This document shows positions 1,210 to 24,001 of a DNA stretch of 24,001 bases, in pieces. The stretch comes from a virus. Below the pieces are notes generated by a model that saw nothing but the letters and a program-made list of their open reading frames with translations, searched no databases and was not told where the DNA came from. The stretch spans positions 1-24,001 of the IMG/VR virus record IMGVR_UViG_3300044627_004788. One strand, given 5' to 3'. The stretch's first letter is position 1. Every line of letters starts with the position of its first letter. The translations under genes and the position numbers were made by a program.

Positions 1210-3531
1210 TTAGTTAGAGCATATGTACTGTGAATTTTGTGTTATTCCATCTGGTTGTCCATTTCCATTAGTATCAGATGTGACGCATATAGCATCATTA
1301 TCATTTTGTGTTGCGAAAGACCAGTATCCAGGACCTGATCCGTTTTTATTAAATGTATAGAACGCTGCTTTGTACCATTCATTTTCAGTGGGTATATAAT
1401 ATTTAGCATTGCTATTTTTAATCGGAGTAACTCCGCTGGTTATACCATTTAAAGTATAGGCTCCTGTCTCTGTGGATCCTGGTGTTTTATTATTATGTAG
1501 CCAATTACAATATCTTGCTGCGTCAAACCAACTGACAAAAATTACTGGCTTATATAACATATTAGTCTTTGAAGAATAAGTAAAGCTACCAGATGATCCG
1601 TTTCTAACTATTCCTCCATTTATATTATCGTTCATATTAATATTATATAAACCATATAGGTCTGTTTGTGCTGTGCTATTAAGAAAATTAATATAATCGC
1701 AGTTAGTTATAGGATACTGTGATATATAGTATACATAATTTATTGAACCATATCCATTTGAATCTGGGCTATTCGCAGTATTACTTATCTGATTAAAATA
1801 ATTTAAATTTAAACTATTGTTATCAGAAGCAATTCTAAAACCTGTATCAAGATCTTCATATGAGGAATCAACCATTGCTATACGATAAGATGATTTTAAT
1901 ACAGCTACCGAACTTTGCCAATATCCTCCTCTGAGACCCTTATATTGACCTGAAGAATTATTTAAATTATTCCATTCAAAAATATTTCCTATTTGATCAT
2001 ATGTGTTATGTGAGCTAGGTCCTCCATTTGTACCAACAGTTGTTAATCTACCAGCACAATTATTAAAATTTGCTGTATTTATACCTATACTAGGAGCAGG
2101 CGTTGTGCTAACTGTAGGAGTTATAGTCGCTGTGATACTAACCGATGGCGTCACAGTAGAAGTTGAAGTAGAAGTTATGGTTGGTGTTGTTGTTATAGTA
2201 CTTGTTGGAGTAATAGATTTAGTTATTGTTGGCGTTGGCGTAATTGTTGGCGTTATAGTTGAGGTGCTAGTTACCGTCGGTGTTATTGTGGGAGTAATAC
2301 TTTCTGTAGGAGTTATAGTTGGGGTAGTTGTTTTTGTTGGTGTTATAGTATTAGTTAATGTGATCGTCGGAGTTGTCGTTGGGGTTTGCGTAGGAGTATC
2401 TGTGACGGTCGGTGTTGTTGTTGAAGTTTTAGTTATTGTCGGAGTAATACTTTTAGTTAAAGATATGCTAGGAGTCAGAGATATAGTAGGAGTAGGCGTC
2501 ACGCTTTGTGTGTCAAAAGTATATGGGTCATCATATGTTATTATCAACTTCCAGGAATCAATTCTGCCACTACCTATAGGATCGGTGTCCTTTATAATAA
2601 GATTCCAAACTCCTGTAACTGAATTATTAAATAAATGATTAAATGAATATAGTAAATTTTCACTATTATAGTTAATAATAGATGTTTTATTATAAATATT
2701 ACAAATTTGTCCATTAGATATATTATATATATACTTATCTTGATCTGCTTTATTACTAAACATAAAACTAAAATTATTATTAAAATTACTAATTTTATGA
2801 TTAGCGGATAAAAGTATTTTATCTCCGCTTGGTGGGGCTAAAAGAAAAATAAGATCGCTTGGACTAGAGTGAGATAATTTATTAATCGCTAGTTCTATAT
2901 TCGATATATTATTTGTATTAGTAGTTATTACATTTCCACTAACTGAGGATAAATCCGCTATAGACAAACCGCTACCAGTGTATACAACAGATGATATATC
3001 TATTGGATCACAGTCATATGGCAAACAAAAATCCTCAACAGTCGATGTTGACATAGATGGCGTTGGAGTTGTATTGGTTGTGGTTGGAGTATCTATAATT
3101 ATTTGATCAATTCTCTTGCGAAAAATATCTAAATTTATAGCACACTCTGAGCTAGATGTGTCTAATGGTATATTTCGTTGTATTATTTGTATAGATCCCT
3201 GGGATAATCTAGTATTATTTAATGGAAGTGTAAGAGATTTTATATCTAAATCATATGTAGCCGTATCAAAATTAAATAATGATGTTTTTGAAGCACCAAG
3301 TTTCCAATTAATAGTGCCTAAATTATTAGCTGTTAATGACCACCCATCAACAGAATAATTGGCTAAAGCTTGACTTGAGCATTCTCCAACATCGCCATTA
3401 TTTCCAGAGAAACTTATGCTAACGCACTTATTGCTAAGGTCTATCGGATTTCCTTGACTATCATTGTATACAAAAGAGATATCAAAATCAGACCCTTTTT
3501 CTATATCAAAATTTAAATTAACTGCTGCCAT
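1210..3531 (-). CDS. Multidomain phage adhesin: anchor + P-like domain + Thr/Pro stalk + permuted C-lectin/FGE-fold domain
   Basis: This 773-aa protein has four parts. Residues 1-122 are an 'EKGSDFDISF' virion-anchor domain, paralogous to the 131-aa protein encoded at 11060-11455. Residues about 180-335 look like a P/Homo-B domain (SDLIFLLAPPSGDKILL, GVWNLIIKDT, GRIDSWKLII). Residues 345-481 are an almost pure Thr/Pro/Ser/Ile stalk. Residues 485-773 carry all hallmarks of the FGE-sulfatase/C-type-lectin fold but in swapped order: YDQIGNIFEWN (511-521), LRGGYW (533-538) and TGFRIAS (563-569) precede YYISQYPITNCDYINFLN (601-618), VSWFDAARYCNWLH (666-679) and YYIPTENEWYKAAFY (711-725). The catalytic Cys pair of true FGE is absent, so ligand binding is more likely than catalysis. 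The Shine-Dalgarno sequence is AGGA. It is probably a receptor-binding or surface-display protein. Confidence 0.75.
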   Translation of the reverse strand: MAAVNLNFDIEKGSDFDISFVYNDSQGNPIDLSNKCVSISFSGNNGDVGECSSQALANYSVDGWSLTANNLGTINWKLGASKTSLFNFDTATYDLDIKSLTLPLNNTRLSQGSIQIIQRNIPLDTSSSECAINLDIFRKRIDQIIIDTPTTTNTTPTPSMSTSTVEDFCLPYDCDPIDISSVVYTGSGLSIADLSSVSGNVITTNTNNISNIELAINKLSHSSPSDLIFLLAPPSGDKILLSANHKISNFNNNFSFMFSNKADQDKYIYNISNGQICNIYNKTSIINYNSENLLYSFNHLFNNSVTGVWNLIIKDTDPIGSGRIDSWKLIITYDDPYTFDTQSVTPTPTISLTPSISLTKSITPTITKTSTTTPTVTDTPTQTPTTTPTITLTNTITPTKTTTPTITPTESITPTITPTVTSTSTITPTITPTPTITKSITPTSTITTTPTITSTSTSTVTPSVSITATITPTVSTTPAPSIGINTANFNNCAGRLTTVGTNGGPSSHNTYDQIGNIFEWNNLNNSSGQYKGLRGGYWQSSVAVLKSSYRIAMVDSSYEDLDTGFRIASDNNSLNLNYFNQISNTANSPDSNGYGSINYVYYISQYPITNCDYINFLNSTAQTDLYGLYNINMNDNINGGIVRNGSSGSFTYSSKTNMLYKPVIFVSWFDAARYCNWLHNNKTPGSTETGAYTLNGITSGVTPIKNSNAKYYIPTENEWYKAAFYTFNKNGSGPGYWSFATQNDNDAICVTSDTNGNGQPDGITQNSQYICSN
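2089..2499 (-). repeat. Thr/Pro-rich low-complexity stalk repeat
   Basis: This stretch encodes residues 345-481 of the 773-aa adhesin as degenerate T-P-T-I/S/T units (for example TITPTITPT, TPTESITPT). The plus strand reads as repeated gttggngttat-type units. It separates the P-like domain from the lectin-fold domain and probably acts as an extended spacer. The DNA repeats are imperfect but could allow in-frame length change by recombination. Confidence 0.8.
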
Positions 3532-11507: not shown

Positions 11508-11508
11508 T

Positions 11509-11540
11509 AAAAAAAAAGGCCGAGGCAAGAGCCCCAGCCT
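11509..11540 (-). terminator. Intrinsic terminator downstream of the capsid gene
   Basis: On the leftward strand a 10-bp GC-rich stem (AGGCTGGGGC, loop TCTT, GCCTCGGCCT, two G-U pairs) is followed by eight T residues (11516-11509). It begins 31 nt after the major capsid stop. Outer arms ACCTAAA (11505-11511) and TTTAGGT (11544-11550) extend the symmetry, so it may also act weakly in the other direction. It would isolate high capsid transcription from the adhesin genes. Confidence 0.9.
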
Positions 11541-16993: not shown

Positions 16994-19024
16994 TTATCTA
17001 TAAATTCCCTGATAAATATTATCGTCTCCATTAACGTTAGACGTAAACCACTCGGGACCTTTATATAGTTGTTTATCTTTATTGTTAACTATATCTATCC
17101 TATTATCTCCTATAAGATCATAATTAACTGGCTGTAAAGACCTATTTATTTGTCTAGCTATCATATTTGCTATTAATAAAGAGCTATATCTATCTTTTCT
17201 TAGTCTTCCCTTTTTACCATTTGGTAATTTTACCTCTGGCGTGTCCCATCTGTCTCGTGCTTGAGGACCAGTACTAGTTTGTGTCATAACTATAGTTGTC
17301 AATTCATTTTTTAGTTCTTCTATTTCTAGAATACATTCGCTAACACTATCATATAATGGATTAAGATCAGAATCGATAATATTTTTTCCTTCTTTTTCCA
17401 TAGCCAATCCGAGTGTTAAATTATCAAATTGTGGAAATAATAGTACTTTATCTTCTAGATCTTTTCTTAAACCATGATTAGCCTGACCTGTCCAATCAGC
17501 TTTTGCGAACTGGACTAATTCTAGTATATGTAATCCTTGTTGAGAGTCTGTATCCTTGCTCTTTTCATAATCTATCACTGGCCATATTAGTTGTTCATTT
17601 TCCTGTAATTTACCAGGATCGTGTAGCGCTTCTTCTATAGCTACTCCTCCTCCCTGAGCATCCATTCCTATTCTTATAGGTGGGAAAGTTTTCATAAGAT
17701 CTCTAATTTTTCTAGCGCAAAAACTGTAGAAGTCATATTCTTTTACTAGTCCTATCTTCTGTCTTTCTTTAAAATTATTACGATTTGTTGCCCAACAATA
17801 GACAATTCTGGAATGCGTTGGATGAACTTCTAGTATCACTATACTAAAATTATCTTGTTCACTAGCAGGGTCTATTCCATAAACATATTGACAATTCTGA
17901 TTGCCTTGGGTTATCGCATTAAAAATAATGGACTGATTATTTATTGTTATAGGCGGATAGTCTTTTACAACACAACTCTCTATGAGACTTCTTCTAAAGA
18001 ATCCTTGACTATCATTAACAAAACAAGCTGCATACTCCATATTATAAATACCAACATGTATAGTAGCTTTTGCTCTACTAACTTGCTTATCATCCATGAA
18101 GCCCTTTGGTATTAATTCATATGGGATACGAATAATACTATAGTCTTTCCAATTAAAATTCGAAGGAACCTCGCCATTGAAAACATCTTCTAGTTTTCTG
18201 ATATTGCCTTTGCTCTCAATAATACTCTTATATCTTTTCCAATACTGTGCAAAATGTTTGAATCCATAATCTGCTGTGCCACTAATAACAGCTTGGTTAT
18301 TAATTTTTCTAGAAATTGAATCTAATTCTTTATTCCATATTCCAGCTGTTCTCATCGCTTCTTTTTTTGCTTCATCTTTCACGTTTTGTATTGGGCTTGC
18401 GCTAACAGCTGCGAATCCAGAAACAACGGTCTCGTAAATGTCCGGAGATATGCTGCTAAACTCATCAGCAAGAATAATATGTGCTCTTAAGCCTCTAATT
18501 TTGTCGCCATTACCTAATGGAATAGCAATAGCCCAGCTATCCCCTAGTCTTATAGTACATCTGTCAACATCTCTTCTTGGTCCATCTTCATTGCCATTAA
18601 AAATACTTCTTAATATAGGACTATTTTTCCATATATTTTCCATATATTCAAAAATAATTTTACTCTGTCTAAAAGCTGCTCCGACTATAACTACTTTTGT
18701 ACCAGGGAAAAATGTGCATTTTAATACTGCGTATAATGCTAGTAGAAAACTTTTACTAAATCCTCTGCTACCAATTAACATAGGAAAGGGTCTGTCCCAT
18801 ATTTCTTGTAGAACAACTATCTGCATTGGATGAAGCTCTATATTAAAAATGAGCTTGCATGTAGATCCTAAATAATTTGGATCTTTTAGCATTCTTAATA
18901 AATGAAGATCTGGATTCTCTATATCTTCTTTAGTCCTATGTATCATAGGATTTTTACTTAAAGCTAAAGAGTTTAGATCTCCAAGACCTAACCATGCATC
19001 GTCAAAATTTTTAATATCAATCAT
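16994..19024 (-). CDS. Terminase large subunit
   Basis: This 676-aa DNA-packaging motor has both halves visible. In the N-terminal ATPase, the adenine-binding Q-motif is LHPMQ (about 65-68), Walker A is GSRGFSKS (85-92, Lys91), Walker B is HIILADEF (182-189, Asp187/Glu188) and a coupling motif SGT follows near 248-250. The C-terminal RNase H-like nuclease has acidic residues at Asp385 (YGIDPASEQDN), Asp455 (RIGMDAQGGG) and Asp611 (RKDRYSSLLIAN). It cleaves concatemers and pumps DNA through the portal. The start overlaps the end of the 189-aa gene by 8 bp (ATGATTGA), with no independent Shine-Dalgarno sequence, so translation is coupled. It is intact by every visible motif. Confidence 0.95.
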   Translation of the reverse strand: MIDIKNFDDAWLGLGDLNSLALSKNPMIHRTKEDIENPDLHLLRMLKDPNYLGSTCKLIFNIELHPMQIVVLQEIWDRPFPMLIGSRGFSKSFLLALYAVLKCTFFPGTKVVIVGAAFRQSKIIFEYMENIWKNSPILRSIFNGNEDGPRRDVDRCTIRLGDSWAIAIPLGNGDKIRGLRAHIILADEFSSISPDIYETVVSGFAAVSASPIQNVKDEAKKEAMRTAGIWNKELDSISRKINNQAVISGTADYGFKHFAQYWKRYKSIIESKGNIRKLEDVFNGEVPSNFNWKDYSIIRIPYELIPKGFMDDKQVSRAKATIHVGIYNMEYAACFVNDSQGFFRRSLIESCVVKDYPPITINNQSIIFNAITQGNQNCQYVYGIDPASEQDNFSIVILEVHPTHSRIVYCWATNRNNFKERQKIGLVKEYDFYSFCARKIRDLMKTFPPIRIGMDAQGGGVAIEEALHDPGKLQENEQLIWPVIDYEKSKDTDSQQGLHILELVQFAKADWTGQANHGLRKDLEDKVLLFPQFDNLTLGLAMEKEGKNIIDSDLNPLYDSVSECILEIEELKNELTTIVMTQTSTGPQARDRWDTPEVKLPNGKKGRLRKDRYSSLLIANMIARQINRSLQPVNYDLIGDNRIDIVNNKDKQLYKGPEWFTSNVNGDDNIYQGIYR

Positions 19025-19586
19025 TATTATTTTTTAATAATCTACGAGATGTTTTAATTGCTCTCTTCACTATCATAGACGCTATAGTTTCTATAAATGG
19101 TAGGTGTCTTTTTTCACTTTCTTCTTTTAGCCATGATAAAATTACTGGTAAGTTTGTCTCACACCAATCAACTCCTCTTTCATTCATTTCTATAGCGTGC
19201 CGACGACAAGAACAGTTTGCTGTACTTTTTATTCCTAAAGAACTTATCATACTGGTCAATATTGTTCCTGGACCATTAGGATCTTCTTCAAGAGTTCTTG
19301 GAAATTTTTTTCTTAATTTCATTGACATATCGTCTTTAATCTGATCGTACAACAATTCTTCTAGTTTTGATCTATTAACATTTCCAAGTTTTTCGTAATC
19401 TATTCCATATGCCAATAAGAAAGAACCAGGAATATTTTTTATAGTTGCCGATACTGATTTACTTGTTGGATTATCGTGATAAGTAATATCTAAAAAATCT
19501 ATAAATAGTGCTGGTGGATTTACTAATTTGTTTTCATGATCTGTATATGGGGGCGGGTTAATGATAATAGGATTCTCAAGTTTCAT
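19017..19586 (-). CDS. Conserved protein with Cys/His cluster, upstream of terminase
   Basis: This 189-aa protein has two parts: an N-terminal half with a short beta region (PPALFIDFLDITYHD, GSFLLAYGIDYEKLG) and a C-terminal half with a Cys cluster (TANCSCRRHAIEMNERGVDW with Cys125, Cys127, His130, Cys142), followed by a helix (LPFIETIASMIVKRAIKTSRR). The cluster suggests a metal site but has too few ligands to be sure. I know similar C-x-C-x10-16-W-C segments from phage and bacterial proteins of unknown function. A longer frame starts at a TTG (19604), but I chose the ATG at 19586 because AGGA lies 9 nt upstream. It overlaps both neighbours, so it may assist packaging. Confidence 0.6.
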   Translation of the reverse strand: MKLENPIIINPPPYTDHENKLVNPPALFIDFLDITYHDNPTSKSVSATIKNIPGSFLLAYGIDYEKLGNVNRSKLEELLYDQIKDDMSMKLRKKFPRTLEEDPNGPGTILTSMISSLGIKSTANCSCRRHAIEMNERGVDWCETNLPVILSWLKEESEKRHLPFIETIASMIVKRAIKTSRRLLKNNND

Positions 19587-20064
19587 TTGATTTTTTCCTT
19601 TCAATAGATGTTGTCAGATAAATTCTTTTTAAAATGTATTCTGCTATTTTTTCTGCATTAGAGGCATTATTACAAAATAATACTTTAATATTATGTTTTA
19701 ATTGCCAATCTAAGATATTCTTCATAATAAATGCTGGAGTTATTTTAACTTTATCCCACATTTTTTTAGGTAAATTAGAACCTATGGGATAATTTAAAAC
19801 GTCGGTCATGCTAAATTCAAGTAGTAAAAATGAATATTTAAGTTGGGACAGTCGTGCTACAACATCTTTAAATCTTGGTTCAACAATATTATTTGCTATC
19901 TCATTAATACTCTTTTTCCTTTCAATAGCAAAAATTTCTTGTAGGCCATCTATACTATAGTCACCAGTGTCTAATTTTTTATTGGCCACAACATACTCTG
20001 AAAAAGACCATGGTTGTTGCTCTCTAGTATCTATTATAATTGTAAAATCTTGATTATTTATCAT
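19576..20064 (-). CDS. ERCC4-type nuclease
   Basis: This 162-aa protein has the ERCC4/XPF-type nuclease signature in order: IIDTREQQPWSF (Asp12, Glu15), KLDTGDYSI (Gly34-Asp35), and FAIERKKSINE (Glu48-Arg49-Lys50). Later parts (LKYSFLLLEF, HNIKVLFCNNASNAEKIAEYIL) match the rest of the core fold. ERK and GD are the metal-binding catalytic residues in this family, which cuts branched or flap DNA. Phage-encoded single-domain members may process replication or packaging intermediates. It overlaps the HNH gene by 11 bp and lies upstream of terminase, so a packaging or recombination role is likely but inferred. No helicase or HhH domain is attached. Confidence 0.85.
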   Translation of the reverse strand: MINNQDFTIIIDTREQQPWSFSEYVVANKKLDTGDYSIDGLQEIFAIERKKSINEIANNIVEPRFKDVVARLSQLKYSFLLLEFSMTDVLNYPIGSNLPKKMWDKVKITPAFIMKNILDWQLKHNIKVLFCNNASNAEKIAEYILKRIYLTTSIERKKSNET

Positions 20065-20329
20065 TAGATTTCTTATCCGCTATAATTTTAAAAAAAACAG
20101 CCTCATATGCATTTTCATTTCCTTCTATCATCTGGTGATGAAATTTGCATAATGTTATACCATTATTTATATTATATCTTAAATCTATGCTGTCAGCCCA
20201 TCTTTTGATATGATGAACATGTAATTTTTTAGATGATAAGCACCCAGGCCACTGACATTTATGATGATCTCTTTTTCTTATACTATTTCTCCATTGTTTA
20301 TATAGTGGATCATTATAATTCCTAAACAT
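20054..20329 (-). CDS. HNH endonuclease
   Basis: This 91-aa HNH nuclease has Cys25 and Cys30 (KCQWPGC) for structural zinc, LHVHHIKRW with His39/His40, then NINNGITLCKFHH with the Asn and final His65 of the motif, and a third and fourth metal-binding position at Cys61/His64. It is the small, stand-alone type found beside terminase in many phages. In HK97-like cos phages, such HNH proteins cooperate with terminase in cleavage of the packaging site. The ATG overlaps the gmd stop by 8 bp and no Shine-Dalgarno sequence is visible, so translation is coupled. A homing role is less likely because it is not inside an intron and does not split a gene. Confidence 0.85.
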   Translation of the reverse strand: MFRNYNDPLYKQWRNSIRKRDHHKCQWPGCLSSKKLHVHHIKRWADSIDLRYNINNGITLCKFHHQMIEGNENAYEAVFFKIIADKKSNDK

Positions 20330-21311
20330 TTTGATAACTATTTATATCATGGTCCACCATCTCATGTACCAGCTCATCAAAAGATGTTGATGGTTTCCAG
20401 CCTAATACTTTTTGAGCTTTTGTTGAACGACCACATAAATAATCAACTTCTGCTGGTCTATATAAACTAGGATCTATTGTTATATATTGTTTATAATCTA
20501 AATTAGCATACTCAAATGCTTTTTTAACAAAATCTAAAGCTTTGTAGCTGGTTTCTGTACATATTACAAAATCATCGGCAAAATCTTGTTGTAGCATCAG
20601 ATGCATAGCATATACATAATCCTTAGCATGGCCCCAGTCTCTGTATGACTGTAAATTACCGAGCTTTAATAATTCGTTAGTTTTGTTATTAATAACTTGG
20701 CCTATATATTTGGTTACTTTTCTTGTTAAAAAGTTTTCTCCTCGTCTGGGACTTTCATGATTAAATAATATGCCAGAGCAACAAAATAGATTATAAGCAT
20801 CGCGATATATTTGTACTAAACGATGACTAGATAATTTAGCAACAGCATATGGACTTTGTGGTAAAAATGGAGTATTTTCATCTTGATATTTAATATTATT
20901 ATCAATATCAAAATTTCTACCAAACATTTCACTAGTACTAGCTTGATAAAATTTTGTTGCAGATGATGCGGATTTTATACTCTCCAAAATATATAAAACC
21001 CCCATGGTATTAATATCAAATGTTGTTGTTGGCTGATCAAAGCTACTACCAACGTGGCTCATTGCTGCTAGATTATAAAATTCATCTGGTTGGTATTTAT
21101 GAAGGATATGATTAATAGATGATGGATCAGTAAGATCAAATTCTATTAAAGTTAAATTATGATGATGTATTATATTATTTATTCTTTGAAAATTATAGTT
21201 ACTATTTCGTCTATATAATCCTATAACCTTATAGTCTTTTTCTAAAAGTAATTCGGCTAAATAACTACCATCTTGTCCTGTTATGCCTGTTATGATAGCT
21301 GATTTATTCAT
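20322..21311 (-). CDS. gmd: GDP-mannose 4,6-dehydratase
   Basis: This 329-aa short-chain dehydrogenase converts GDP-mannose to GDP-4-keto-6-deoxymannose, the first step to GDP-fucose, GDP-rhamnose and related sugars. The NAD(P) site is GITGQDGSYL (9-18). Catalytic Thr126 and Glu128 lie in STSEMFG, and Tyr155 and Lys159 in SPYAVAK. Signature stretches LFNHESPRRGENFLTRK, YRDWGHAKDYVYAMHLMLQQ and YRPAEVDYLCGRSTKAQKVLGW are those of true Gmd. It appears intact and near full length. It is the only sugar-nucleotide gene here; no reductase or epimerase follows. It overlaps both neighbours with a GGAG Shine-Dalgarno sequence, so it is locked in the packaging operon. Phages use such genes for host or virion glycan change. 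Confidence 0.93.
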   Translation of the reverse strand: MNKSAIITGITGQDGSYLAELLLEKDYKVIGLYRRNSNYNFQRINNIIHHHNLTLIEFDLTDPSSINHILHKYQPDEFYNLAAMSHVGSSFDQPTTTFDINTMGVLYILESIKSASSATKFYQASTSEMFGRNFDIDNNIKYQDENTPFLPQSPYAVAKLSSHRLVQIYRDAYNLFCCSGILFNHESPRRGENFLTRKVTKYIGQVINNKTNELLKLGNLQSYRDWGHAKDYVYAMHLMLQQDFADDFVICTETSYKALDFVKKAFEYANLDYKQYITIDPSLYRPAEVDYLCGRSTKAQKVLGWKPSTSFDELVHEMVDHDINSYQNV

Positions 21312-22134
21312 TATTTTTCTCCATTAATTCTGGGCTTAATAGGGGAAAGTCAACAATTCCATCCTGATATGAATGATATTCTTCTAATTTATTTTTTGAT
21401 TTATTAGCGGCCATTGATAATATTTCCATTTCTCTTCCTTCTTTTTCTCTTATAGCCTCGTCTTCTAACATGCGTATCAAGCCAACCCAACTACTTTTTC
21501 CGTCTTCTATTCTTTTGATTCGTTGTTCTCTTGTTGCTTTGAGATCTTTGCTTATTTTTTGTTGCTCATTTAATAATTTAGTATATTCATTAGTATAATT
21601 GGCTATACTATTTCGAGCAAAACTGAGCTGTTGTTCGAGGTTGGCCAGTTTAGGAATATCACGATCACTTTCTTTTTTCTCATATTCTTGGTCAACAAGT
21701 TTTTGCAATTTTTCTGTTTCGCTGATGTGTCGTTTTCGTTCTTTCATAGAGCGATTAATTAATATATCAATTGTTATAAATTGTTTGATCTGTAGTTCTT
21801 CTGCTGGTAATACGTCTTCTCTGAATTGTTTTATCAGACTAACCCATGTATTTTCAAAATATTCTAATTCTCCGGTTTCTTTATCGAATTGTCTTGTTAT
21901 TTCTTGCCAAAATGTTTTACTATGTAGTTTATCTTTTAAGGTATCGTATGCTATTTTTTCTTCGGGATCTGTTAATAAATTATTTTCATTAATATATCTT
22001 TTAATAGGATTAGAGTGTCTATTAAGTTTTTGGGCGATCTGATCAACAGATAAGCTATTAATATTCTCTCTTATAAAAGCCTCTTCATCAAGACTTAATT
22101 GTCCTCGTTTTTTGGAAATTCTGTCTGGTTCCAA
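21304..22134 (-). CDS. HTH/coiled-coil protein, candidate terminase small subunit
   Basis: This 276-aa protein has a predicted helix-turn-helix at residues about 11-53 (LSLDEEAFIRENI, VDQIAQKLNRHSNPIKRYIN) and a long charged coiled coil at about 110-240 (MKERKRHISETEKLQKLV, QKISKDLKATREQRIKRIED). DNA-binding head plus coiled-coil body is the usual plan of small terminases, and it is encoded a few genes upstream of the large subunit, but no sequence signature proves this. It starts with TTG: a perfect GGAGGA (22141-22146) lies 6 nt upstream and no ATG exists nearby, so the start is well supported. The HTH resembles that of the 69-aa protein encoded rightward at 22969. An alternative role is a transcription or replication accessory factor. 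Confidence 0.6.
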   Translation of the reverse strand: MEPDRISKKRGQLSLDEEAFIRENINSLSVDQIAQKLNRHSNPIKRYINENNLLTDPEEKIAYDTLKDKLHSKTFWQEITRQFDKETGELEYFENTWVSLIKQFREDVLPAEELQIKQFITIDILINRSMKERKRHISETEKLQKLVDQEYEKKESDRDIPKLANLEQQLSFARNSIANYTNEYTKLLNEQQKISKDLKATREQRIKRIEDGKSSWVGLIRMLEDEAIREKEGREMEILSMAANKSKNKLEEYHSYQDGIVDFPLLSPELMEKNNE

Positions 22135-22739
22135 TTGTGTTCCTCCATCAGTTCCTGAATGTGTTTTTTAAGTTTGATTAATTCTGATTTATTAATTTTA
22201 TGATTATGTTTTAATTTTAAATAATTTTCTCTAAATTCTGATCTTATATATTTATCTAAAAAGCTTATCAGATCAGAACTATCTGATGGGTTTTTATTCA
22301 TACAAAATAGTGTTTGATCCTCGACGTAGGATGGCTTTGCAATATTTTTTTTAGCATTATTTCTCTTAAACCACGATGAGTATAGGTCGCACTCTGTTTT
22401 CTCTATATATTTGGAACATTGACTTTGGGACACTTTATTTTTTGGATCATATAATGGACATGTTAAACACGGCTTGTCTGGTCTTTGATAGTTATTTCTT
22501 TTGTAGTTAAACAATCTATTTCTAACATGGGTCCACAAGAAGTTCTCTAATGGTCTTTTGTGATCGTAGTTTTTAAGTCCTTCTAGAGCAAATATAGCAG
22601 CTTGCTGTTTCATATCCTCAACACTATGGTATCCAAATTTAAATTTATATGCTAATCTTTTAGTTATTTTATCTAAAACTTCTAGAAATTCTTGGTCAGA
22701 AACTGTTTGTTTATTTGGTGTTTTTGTTTTTTTCTTCAT
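22095..22739 (-). CDS. Sigma-region-2-like protein with Cys cluster
   Basis: This 214-aa protein has an N-terminal part (about 15-85) reading like sigma-70 region 2: ITKRLAYKFKF, VEDMKQQAAIFALEGLKNYD, then NFLWTHVRNRLFNYKR, the core-binding and -10-recognition helices. After this comes a Cys cluster, Cys91-x2-Cys94 and Cys108-x8-Cys117, which could bind zinc or iron-sulphur. No convincing region 4 is visible; the C terminus is a basic helix. It may direct RNA polymerase to phage promoters, but binding has not been shown. The ATG overlaps the 54-aa gene by 29 bp. It is near the start of the leftward operon, suiting early synthesis to permit late transcription. Confidence 0.7.
   Translation of the reverse strand: MKKKTKTPNKQTVSDQEFLEVLDKITKRLAYKFKFGYHSVEDMKQQAAIFALEGLKNYDHKRPLENFLWTHVRNRLFNYKRNNYQRPDKPCLTCPLYDPKNKVSQSQCSKYIEKTECDLYSSWFKRNNAKKNIAKPSYVEDQTLFCMNKNPSDSSDLISFLDKYIRSEFRENYLKLKHNHKINKSELIKLKKHIQELMEEHNWNQTEFPKNEDN
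22141..22146 (-). promoter_or_regulatory. Shine-Dalgarno GGAGGA deciding a TTG start
   Basis: GGAGGA lies 6 nt before TTG at 22134. It is the strongest ribosome site in the leftward operon and fixes the start of the HTH/coiled-coil gene at a non-ATG codon. It lies within the end of the sigma-like gene, so translation may be coupled. Confidence 0.8.
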
Positions 22740-22875
22740 TGGCTAAAAGAATACTTATATCATCTCCGTCTGGTAGTTGAAGATCGTTTTGTATGTCGCT
22801 AATAATAGATCCAGATGCCTTAATATCTAAGACTGATGGGATAAGATCATCAATATTAGAATCAAAATTAATCAT
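22711..22875 (-). CDS. Small acidic protein (54 aa), first gene of the leftward operon
   Basis: Reading leftward from ATG at 22875 gives 54 codons (start MINFDSNIDDLIPSVLD) and a stop at 22711. The protein is acidic (many Asp) and ends in a Lys/Asn-rich segment, with no known family. A purine-rich AAGGGG lies 6 nt before the ATG. The -10 of the strong leftward promoter is about 40 bp upstream, so it is the first translated frame of the transcript. It overlaps the sigma-like gene by 29 bp, which has no own ribosome site, so it may couple translation to that gene. Function is unknown; an inhibitor or cofactor of the sigma-like protein is possible but speculative. Confidence 0.65.
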   Translation of the reverse strand: MINFDSNIDDLIPSVLDIKASGSIISDIQNDLQLPDGDDISILLANEEKNKNTK

Positions 22876-22890
22876 AAATGACCCCTTGCT

Positions 22891-22919
22891 TTAAAAGTAT
22901 CAATCTGGTATTATATAAT
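22891..22919 (+). promoter_or_regulatory. Candidate rightward promoter
   Basis: TTAAAA at 22891-22896 and a perfect TATAAT at 22914-22919, 17 bp apart, form a moderate sigma70-type promoter for the 69-aa HTH gene (start 22969). The -10 lies in a perfect 12-bp palindrome (TATTATATAATA, 22909-22920) which also carries the leftward -10, so RNA polymerase can bind only one of the two at a time. Confidence 0.55.
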
Positions 22920-22942
22920 AGTACCAAGTAGTTGGTTGTCAA
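22915..22942 (-). promoter_or_regulatory. Strong leftward sigma70-type promoter
   Basis: Leftward strand: TTGACA (22942-22937), 16 bp, TATTAT (22920-22915). The -35 is perfect and the -10 five of six. A start site near 22908 gives a leader of about 33 nt before the ATG at 22875. It probably drives the whole packaging and head operon in the host by host RNA polymerase. Confidence 0.75.
22923..22936. promoter_or_regulatory. Putative operator: ACCAA-N4-TTGGT
   Basis: A perfect 5-bp inverted repeat with 4-bp centre (ACCAAGTAGTTGGT) fills almost exactly the 16-bp spacer of the leftward promoter. A repressor bound here would block the leftward promoter and be placed just downstream of the rightward -10. 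The adjacent 69-aa HTH gene is a natural candidate for the binding protein. Confidence 0.5.
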
Positions 22943-22968
22943 TATTTACACTAATACTGGAGATTATT

Positions 22969-23178
22969 ATGAATTATAGAAAATGGGGCCAAATGGAACT
23001 AGATTTTATTAAGGATAATTTTGGTAATATTTCTGATAATGAACTAGCAGCAAAGCTTAGTCAAATGACAAATAGCTCTATTACAACTCCTATGATAAGG
23101 CGTCAACGACGAAAGCTTGGTATTCAAAAGGCAAGAGGTCGTCGTCCAAAAGCTCATGCTTCACTAAATAATGGATGA
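22969..23178 (+). CDS. Small HTH DNA-binding protein (69 aa)
   Basis: The first rightward gene encodes a basic 69-aa protein. Its helix-turn-helix-like core reads WGQMELDFIKDNFGNISDNELAAKL followed by a recognition-like helix (TTPMIRRQRRKLGI) and a basic tail (ARGRRPK). The pattern is a common phage SANT/HTH-like head. I chose ATG at 22969 (MNYRKWGQ) because GGAG lies 6 nt upstream; the alternative upstream start would add 11 residues without a ribosome site. The protein is likely to bind DNA, and its position beside the divergent promoters suggests autoregulation or repression of the leftward operon. It resembles the N-terminal HTH of the 276-aa protein. Confidence 0.7.
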   Translation: MNYRKWGQMELDFIKDNFGNISDNELAAKLSQMTNSSITTPMIRRQRRKLGIQKARGRRPKAHASLNNG

Positions 23179-23189
23179 TATGATACATC

Positions 23190-23669
23190 ATGAAATATAT
23201 TATAATTTGGGCGATTCTATTATCTAGTATTATAAGTAATAGAATATTTGGGAATGACGAGCCTGTTATTCAAAATCAAAGACCAGTAATGGTTGAGGAC
23301 TTGTCATCAGTAGCAGATATGGAACAAGCTATCCTGTCTGCTATTGATGCTGCCAATACTGAAGATTTATCTGTTTTTTTGGACCACTTTACAAATAATG
23401 CAAAGGGTAGGATTCGTAAAAAAATCGCTATTTTATTTGTTAAAGAAACAGTAAGAGTAGAGCTTATAGAACATCATGTTATAGATAATAATAGCTCGAA
23501 GGGCAGCATGGCCGTACGGTATAAAGCTATAATTTCTGATAATACTAAGGAAATAGTATCTATAATTAAGCTAGTAAATGAGAATAATAGCTGGAAAATA
23601 GATAATGAAAAGATATATAGCTCTAGTGAATCTGAATACTCTTTATCCGATCCATTCAGATTAAAATAA
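23190..23669 (+). CDS. Secreted NTF2-like protein
   Basis: This 159-aa protein has a signal peptide: a short basic start then hydrophobic residues 3-20 (YIIIWAILLSSIISNRIF), with cleavage near residue 21-23. The mature part has an NTF2/SnoaL-like pattern: an initial helix pair (MEQAILSAIDAANTEDLSVFLDHF) and curved strands with MAVRYKAIIS, IVSIIKLVNENNSWKIDN, where the final 'W-K-I' strand is typical. No catalytic motif is seen, and a lipobox Cys is absent. It would act outside the inner membrane. It starts 11 bp after the HTH gene and is probably cotranscribed. As a secreted product in a phage it could be a lysogenic-conversion or exclusion factor, but this is inference. Confidence 0.6.
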   Translation: MKYIIIWAILLSSIISNRIFGNDEPVIQNQRPVMVEDLSSVADMEQAILSAIDAANTEDLSVFLDHFTNNAKGRIRKKIAILFVKETVRVELIEHHVIDNNSSKGSMAVRYKAIISDNTKEIVSIIKLVNENNSWKIDNEKIYSSSESEYSLSDPFRLK

Positions 23670-23683
23670 TTATGCAGGGGTAG

Positions 23684-23887
23684 GTGGTGATAAAGATTTT
23701 GGTAAATGATGTAATTGTGAAAGTTTCAACTGCTCGTAGTTATAGGGGAGACTTAAGAAGTAACTTAGGATCAAGCTATCATGGATTTAATACGAAACTA
23801 AATCCCAAGTGGTTTATTGGCGGGGAAAATAGGGTGAGTGTGAAAGTTGGAGATAGTGTCATTTGGAGTGGTAAGATTAATAAATAG
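23684..23887 (+). CDS. Small beta-sandwich-like protein ('HGF' domain), 67 aa
   Basis: This 67-aa protein starts at GTG (23684; a second GTG follows at 23687) after an AGGGG purine tract. The pattern YRGDLRSN-LGSSYHGFNTKL...WFIGGENRVSVKV matches a beta-sandwich module that I know as part of larger glycan-related bacterial proteins, with the motif R-DL-x-x-x-G-(D/S)-x-x-HGF-x-x-x-LP followed by a GGxxHxVxV strand. Here it stands alone, which is unusual: it may be a free carbohydrate-binding or interaction domain, or a fragment of a longer gene. No signal peptide is present, and it lies 15 bp after the secreted NTF2-like gene. Confidence in the module is moderate, in function low. Confidence 0.5.
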   Translation: MVIKILVNDVIVKVSTARSYRGDLRSNLGSSYHGFNTKLNPKWFIGGENRVSVKVGDSVIWSGKINK

Positions 23888-23944
23888 TAACTATTGAATT
23901 CTAATAAGGTTCTAGGGTCTAATACCAATAGAAGCATAGAAACC

Positions 23945-23957
23945 AACCTAGTAGGTT
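23945..23957. other. Weak inverted repeat AACCT-AGT-AGGTT
   Basis: A 5-bp stem with a 3-nt loop lies 58 bp after the last rightward gene, followed 16 nt later by a TTTTT tract. It could be part of a weak terminator for the rightward genes but is too small and too far from the T-tract to be called with confidence. The rest of 23888-24001 shows no other clear feature; an ATG near the very end may start a further gene. Confidence 0.25.
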
Positions 23958-24001
23958 TAGGTGATACATTTAGTTTTTAATGTGCTTATTATGTTTGGAC
24001 C

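Follow-up and report, generated by a model that had tools for sequence, protein, structure and literature searches.

Does a palindromic –10 block lying between two divergent phage genes serve two promoters that face opposite ways, or does its symmetry merely reflect A+T-rich DNA in front of a single promoter? The question arises at the right end of the window, by which we mean the whole stretch of DNA analysed, namely IMG/VR record IMGVR_UViG_3300044627_004788 in full (24001 bases, phage-like). There, a divergent gap of 93 bp separates a leftward gene for a 54-aa protein (22711-22875, minus strand, identified as an ORF) from a rightward gene for a 69-aa HTH-type protein with an AT-hook-like tail (22969-23178, plus strand; alignment, structure model and profile search).

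Genes around the divergent gap

The leftward block contains packaging and structural genes. No family among the Pfam, PHROG and NCBIfam profiles matched the 54-aa protein encoded by its first gene. The second product is a 214-aa protein resembling sigma-70 region 2 and carrying conserved cysteines (22095-22739, minus strand; profile matches and alignment). It matched Pfam Sigma70_r2 (9.4e-5; 22.6 bits, below the cut-off of 24), phrog_1740 (1.9e-5) and NCBIfam TIGR02937 (5.7e-4; 19.6 bits, below the cut-off of 42.9), and since region 2 scores below the curated Pfam and NCBIfam cut-offs we call the protein sigma-like only. A 276-aa protein follows (21304-22134, minus strand), with a weak match to a D5-like regulator family (phrog_323, 9.6e-5). 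The leftward genes succeed one another with no gaps in the order 54-aa, sigma-like, 276-aa, GDP-mannose dehydratase, HNH nuclease, ERCC4-type nuclease, 189-aa protein and terminase large subunit, the last of which (16994-19024, minus strand; phrog_2, 3.5e-22) closes this unbroken run of overlapping genes. Elsewhere in the window, a 773-aa protein with long Thr/Pro-rich repeats is encoded at 1210-3531 (minus strand), and by eye its C-terminus resembles formylglycine-generating-enzyme folds; at about 11508-11540 (minus strand), a hairpin followed by nine T probably ends transcription past the capsid-region genes. No cultured relative was matched in the phage collection searched (at the DNA level and with the two proteins tried), and the genome matches were two small contigs, one in an alphaproteobacterial bin and one in a Flavobacteriales bin. 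Use of a sigma-70-type holoenzyme was assumed throughout.

On the minus strand, the gap contains a –35 element TTGACA (22937-22942; read from the sequence and found by consensus scan), a 16 bp spacer (22921-22936) and a –10 element TATTAT (22915-22920), with a start predicted near 22908; here and below, starts are predictions placed 7 nt from the –10 hexamer. This –10 forms one half of a 12-bp palindrome, TATTATATAATA (22909-22920, both strands), which consists of two abutting –10 hexamers. Its other half, read on the plus strand, is TATTAT (22909-22914; predicted start near 22921), separated by a 17-bp spacer from TTGCTT (22886-22891, plus strand), a –35 of which TTGC is conserved in relatives. 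The original prediction had chosen another rightward register, with TTAAAA (22891-22896, plus strand) lying 17 bp before TATAAT (22914-22919, plus strand; predicted start near 22926), and had singled out a perfect inverted repeat, ACCAA-N4-TTGGT, in the leftward spacer (22923-22936, both strands; ACCAA at 22923-22927, then GTAG, then TTGGT at 22932-22936). The leftward TTGACA-16-TATTAT, the rightward TTAAAA-17-TATAAT, the common palindrome and the spacer dyad are indeed all present at these positions.

We scanned positions 19001-24001 for the consensus and found that the leftward site was the best (11/12) and that TTAAAA-17-TATAAT reached 10/12; TTGCTT itself has 3/6 consensus bases. Promoter-like sites were not in excess in this region (28 versus 30.6 in shuffled sequences). 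Promoter-like pairs with a common –10 numbered 8 in the window, compared with 5.9 ± 2.7 in 100 shuffles, so that in A+T-rich DNA a common –10 alone is ordinary. A common –10 pair with a summed score of at least 21/24 occurs once in the window, whereas 0.04 were expected from shuffles. The chance frequency of weak pairs favors the explanation that the leftward promoter alone is real, the rightward half arising incidentally from an A+T-rich –10 and a ribosome-binding site: the leftward 54-aa gene has its ribosome-binding site in GCAAGG, complementary to the rightward –35 region, and the –35 that coincides with it is weak. Because a single sequence was unable to settle more, relatives were examined.

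The paired promoters among related loci

Scans that used the sigma-like and HTH proteins, singly and as alignments, yielded at least 283 loci (284 with the window); three of these scans used the best 80 of 143, of 319 and of 180 matches, respectively, and many of the 283 loci were the same record caught twice. Merging identical upstream stretches and dropping those near contig ends left 130 distinct loci, 127 of them with the divergent HTH gene in view. The sigma-like proteins were about 45% identical between the most distant loci and 48-77% identical to that of the window among distinct loci. The related loci are not independent of one another, which bears on every conservation count given here.

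Both predicted promoters with a common core were found in 117 of the 127 distinct loci that pair this HTH gene divergently with this sigma-like gene. When the rightward –35 was required to be TTGC, both were present in 70/74 distinct loci. When any TTG box was accepted on each side and the genes had to lie <700 bp apart, 118/125 loci passed, compared with 28/2500 dinucleotide shuffles (1.1%); the figure of 117/127 was derived from this count by dropping L241, a chance match in a split locus (see below), and by adding two long-insert loci to the denominator. The leftward –35 reads TTGAC[A/T/G] in 107 of the 118 loci passing the relaxed test, and nearly all loci place each TTG box 16-17 bp from its own –10, leftward and rightward alike. 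The layout put forward in the original prediction, divergent sigma-70-type promoters with a common palindromic –10 beside a small HTH-type protein, is thus, as judged from sequence, kept across the group. Its choice of TTAAAA as the rightward –35 fared otherwise, for this hexamer is not kept at that place even in the nearest relatives, and the conserved pair is TTGCTT (22886-22891) and TATTAT (22909-22914), 17 bp apart. A TA...T hexamer exists in the alternative register in 117/117 dual loci by virtue of core symmetry, with a poor –35 in most, and because of this symmetry a start from that register, 18 bp from the leftward start, is possible.

The genes served by the two directions could also be narrowed. 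It had been proposed that one protein might decide between the packaging/head operon and the rightward genes. The overlapping leftward genes do reach the terminase; however, the 276-aa protein is present in 129/129 related loci, and the constant cargo of the predicted leftward promoter is the 54-aa, sigma-like and 276-aa genes. To the right, the HTH gene alone is constant behind the predicted promoter, the 159-aa and 67-aa neighbours beyond it being found in 0/129 and 2/129 loci, some of which end before them.

The arrangement of the –10 hexamers was then informative (counts are given for the 117 dual loci). In the commonest form (83/117), a leftward TTGAC[A/T]-16-TAnTAT and a rightward TTGCnn-16-TAnTAT overlap by 2 bp in their hexamers and generate a symmetric 10-bp core, TAnTATAnTA. 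The hexamers abut in 32/117, the window included, and overlap by five in 2. A tree built from the sigma-like proteins by a quick method (LG+G4) shows at least 5 changes of the –10 register, with both –35/–10 spacings staying at 16-17 bp in nearly all loci, and the window has the abutting register inside an otherwise overlapping clade. In a promoter that works one way, the four bases after the –10 hexamer are expected to be largely free. In 42/42 relatives, these four bases read AnTA (preceded by TAnTAT in 40 and by TATAAT in 2).

These patterns bear on the proposal that the leftward promoter alone is real. Rightward spacing holds at 16-17 bp, whereas a change of register alters how far GCAA lies from the leftward –10. 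Moreover, GC precedes AAGG at 68/77 sites of the 54-aa gene, compared with 7/620 other AAGG-ATG contexts of the same loci. The conserved rightward –35 predicted from these comparisons is TTGC(TT), its GC being peculiar to the promoter site.

Exceptions were few. Four of the 127 loci failed the dual test (L178, L179, L203 and L227), and by eye L179, L203 and L227 keep the rightward promoter with no leftward TTG box. In six distant loci (L198, L221, L235, L237, L247 and L249), the –35 boxes look exchanged, with TTGACC rightward and a TTGC-type box leftward; the geometry is the same and the predicted promoter strengths are apparently swapped, as if the strong direction had flipped. L014, in which the HTH gene is out of view (2985 bases available), is a single case with a symmetric core and, by eye, no rightward –35. 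The exact leftward pattern with a symmetric core is rare, matching 8 times in eight phage records (122-244 kb); 6 of the matches were the promoter locus, in 6/8 records, and the other two lay in what by eye is a coding stretch.

Loci in which the two genes are parted

Six split loci provide a natural comparison. Four of them (L134, L136, L155 and L241) have a gap longer by roughly 70-110 bp, and the other two (L165 and L176) carry an extra gene within it. All six retain the rightward promoter, with a spacer of exactly 16 bp, and have lost the leftward partner hexamer and –35. In the four in which a leftward promoter was found nearer the 54-aa gene, the rightward half of that promoter is gone. 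By eye, TTGC / GCAAG persists in the same four although no gene begins after it, and a different ribosome-binding site, one lacking GC, serves the 54-aa gene. As the six loci fall at two places on the tree, at most two split events can be claimed. It was also observed that in L165 and L176 a gene that by eye is glycosyltransferase-like is inserted exactly in the divergent gap between the HTH and 54-aa genes.

We consider that both predicted promoters are under constraint, because AnTA is kept, register shifts preserve the spacings, GC is peculiar to the site and split loci lose the partner half. Taken together, sequence comparison establishes two promoters by their predicted elements, their common core, its conservation, the changes of register and the decay that accompanies the parting of the genes. 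The locus is very probably a bidirectional promoter, in which two sigma-70-type promoters on opposite strands use one common –10 block, a palindrome, and each has a separate –35 at 16-17 bp. The retention of the site-specific GC in split loci with no gene start behind it, together with the fixed rightward spacing, makes it improbable that the leftward promoter alone is real. We also regard it as quite unlikely that the palindrome is chiefly a binding site for the HTH/AT-hook protein with a secondary promoter look, as its perfect symmetry in the window, its A+T-rich core and the adjoining small basic AT-hook protein might suggest, for split loci keep the HTH gene and promoter yet lose core symmetry (6/6), and the 10-bp core is free to vary at positions 3 and 8 but not at the –10 recognition bases. 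For one case, the split loci thus offer an evolutionary answer, in which a symmetric half persists as long as two genes use it and deteriorates after an insertion has separated them; bidirectional promoters have been found by start-site mapping, and such maps alone cannot tell selection from mere –10 symmetry.

The HTH-type protein, operator candidates and known systems

We further considered what might govern the choice of direction. The model of the HTH protein contains three helices (mean pLDDT 85), and RRQRRKL is invariant at the end of the third helix in the family. The AT-hook-like tail reads RGRRP in the window and RGRP in most relatives; Pfam AT_hook matched 18/32 family members (best E 0.002), the window's own member giving no match at 0.1. 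With the model as query, Foldseek returned no PDB structure at E ≤ 0.001. Weak matches to a D5-like PHROG were obtained for both the HTH protein and the 276-aa protein, so that two related regulators may sit on opposite strands of the locus; by eye, the N-terminus of the 276-aa protein looks like the same HTH type. On the basis of the three-helix model and the AT-hook, it is plausible that the HTH protein is a putative regulator that binds or controls the promoter region.

The inverted repeat ACCAA-N4-TTGGT, whose conservation in related phages had been suggested as a check, was found in 1/43 distinct regions, that of the window alone, and is for that reason no conserved operator. It is private to the window's phage, and any 5-bp spacer dyad was found in 0/40 relatives scanned; about 0.4% of shuffled spacers contain a 5-bp dyad within 16 bp, a figure to be read with the dyad having been chosen after the fact. 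A larger palindrome around the core was likewise rejected as a general feature (arm likeness 5.14 within a locus versus 5.24 ± 0.16 between loci); some loci, such as L066, have long arms around the core. In the window's clade, the dyad and arm-symmetry tests revealed no repeated or conserved regulator motif over or beside the core promoters. The likeness of the two spacers to each other was weak in a first test (z 3.0 versus shuffled sequences; 0.368 versus 0.349 for mispaired loci). With more loci, leftward spacers scored on the rightward profile gave z 4.5 at zero offset and at best 6.5 at offset –2, versus shuffles. Part of this signal may stem from the A-rich sequence that follows the –35, and the occurrence of similar A-rich/CAA elements in the two spacers, strongest outside the window's clade, is no more than suggestive. 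In L138, L160 and their relatives, the 12-mers AAAGTGTACAAA and AAAGTGACCAAA (10/12 identical) stand in both spacers, inverted about the common –10, and form a candidate operator pair that is absent from the window.

A separate motif was also observed. GTGTAT boxes at 413, 888, 5708, 11506 and 16991 (minus strand) precede leftward structural genes by 47-66 nt, and 5/6 minus-strand copies fall within the 4% of the window that is intergenic. As a phage-specific promoter the box was unsupported: in eight records, GGTGTATA occurred in 76 copies versus 66 for the reversed control, and GTGTAY-N5-7-TATNNT gave 41 versus 36 in the control (eight related records). GTGTA is found in the leftward spacer of 63/117 related dual loci. 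Ahead of the window's structural genes, no pattern of the T4-like late promoter TATAAATA was detected.

For the bidirectional promoter, we infer that both directions are active, that a host-type holoenzyme is used, that the two directions exclude each other and that the HTH/AT-hook protein feeds back on the site. Polymerase docked leftward, at the stronger TTGACA-16-TATTAT, would produce mRNA for the 54-aa, sigma-like and 276-aa proteins and, through the overlapping genes, as far as the terminase; docked rightward, at the weaker TTGCTT-17-TATTAT, it would produce mRNA for the HTH/AT-hook protein. Since both holoenzymes need the same bases, the geometry predicts that docking in one orientation bars the other, and any influence on promoter occupancy would determine how much HTH protein is made relative to sigma-like protein. 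Selection for such mutual exclusion might be what keeps the promoter bidirectional, with one docking site in two orientations dividing transcription between the HTH/AT-hook regulator and the sigma-like operon in a large uncultivated phage clade, and with register shifts tolerated only as both spacings are restored; we put this forward tentatively, at somewhat short of an even chance. The locus would in any case offer a small testable circuit, in which the sigma-like and HTH proteins compete for one docking site, in a phage group with no cultured member in the collection searched.

In a literature search made mainly by title, no phage promoter of such layout was found described; at that level of search, the kind of promoter is already known, and the phage instance, the depth of its conservation and the natural splits appear to be new. 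Compared by layout, the lambda PR/PRM repressor switch is similar in having divergent promoters by a small HTH regulator. Unlike those of the phage locus, however, the lambda promoters are not known to have a common –10.

The Pc/Pr region of plasmid pLS20 is described as a strong promoter of a long operon overlapping the weak divergent promoter of the operon's regulator (PMC4207663). The phage locus is alike in layout, in that its divergent promoters overlap, and its apparently unequal strengths are judged from sequence, mostly TTGAC[A/T] leftward versus TTGC rightward. By that account, pLS20 is set apart by numerous mapped operator motifs, by looping and by a regulator whose role is proven (PMC4207663). 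The bidirectional promoter might be extended to a switch of this kind: the HTH protein would shut off the strong leftward promoter while turning on the weak rightward promoter of its own gene, and one state would thereby be locked in. The unequal promoter strengths, the constant HTH gene rightward and the constant sigma-like regulator leftward are consistent with this, and a switch of such build is reported as proven in pLS20 (PMC4207663); however, the tests for a conserved operator in the window's clade were negative, and the A-rich/CAA spacer elements, which stand out most in another clade, are no more than suggestive. We regard this extension as possible, though less likely than not.

Bidirectional promoters are known in E. 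coli, Salmonella and other prokaryotes from the work of Warman, Grainger and colleagues, who describe a pseudo-symmetric common –10, divergent starts 7-25 bp apart (modes 18, 10 and 23 bp) and one polymerase at a time; PacrA/acrR and PsoxS/soxR are given as cases with a regulator divergent from its target (PMC12825309, PMC10268837). According to Warman and colleagues, two polymerases are unable to dock together on such a site, the five promoters tested had a basal activity too low for competition, and activating one direction can repress the other (PMC12825309). By analogy with these promoters and with pLS20, initiation at the phage locus would be shared out between the HTH gene on one side and the sigma-like operon on the other. 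It resembles the E. coli type, as described there, in its overlapping, reciprocal –10 elements and in having a regulator gene beside a divergent partner. It differs from the reported modes in the distance between its predicted starts, which is 13 bp for the window and 15 bp for most relatives where both directions use the conserved registers (the alternative register, present by symmetry, would give 18 bp). It differs also in having a conserved –35 for each direction and in being one locus kept over >100 distinct sequences.
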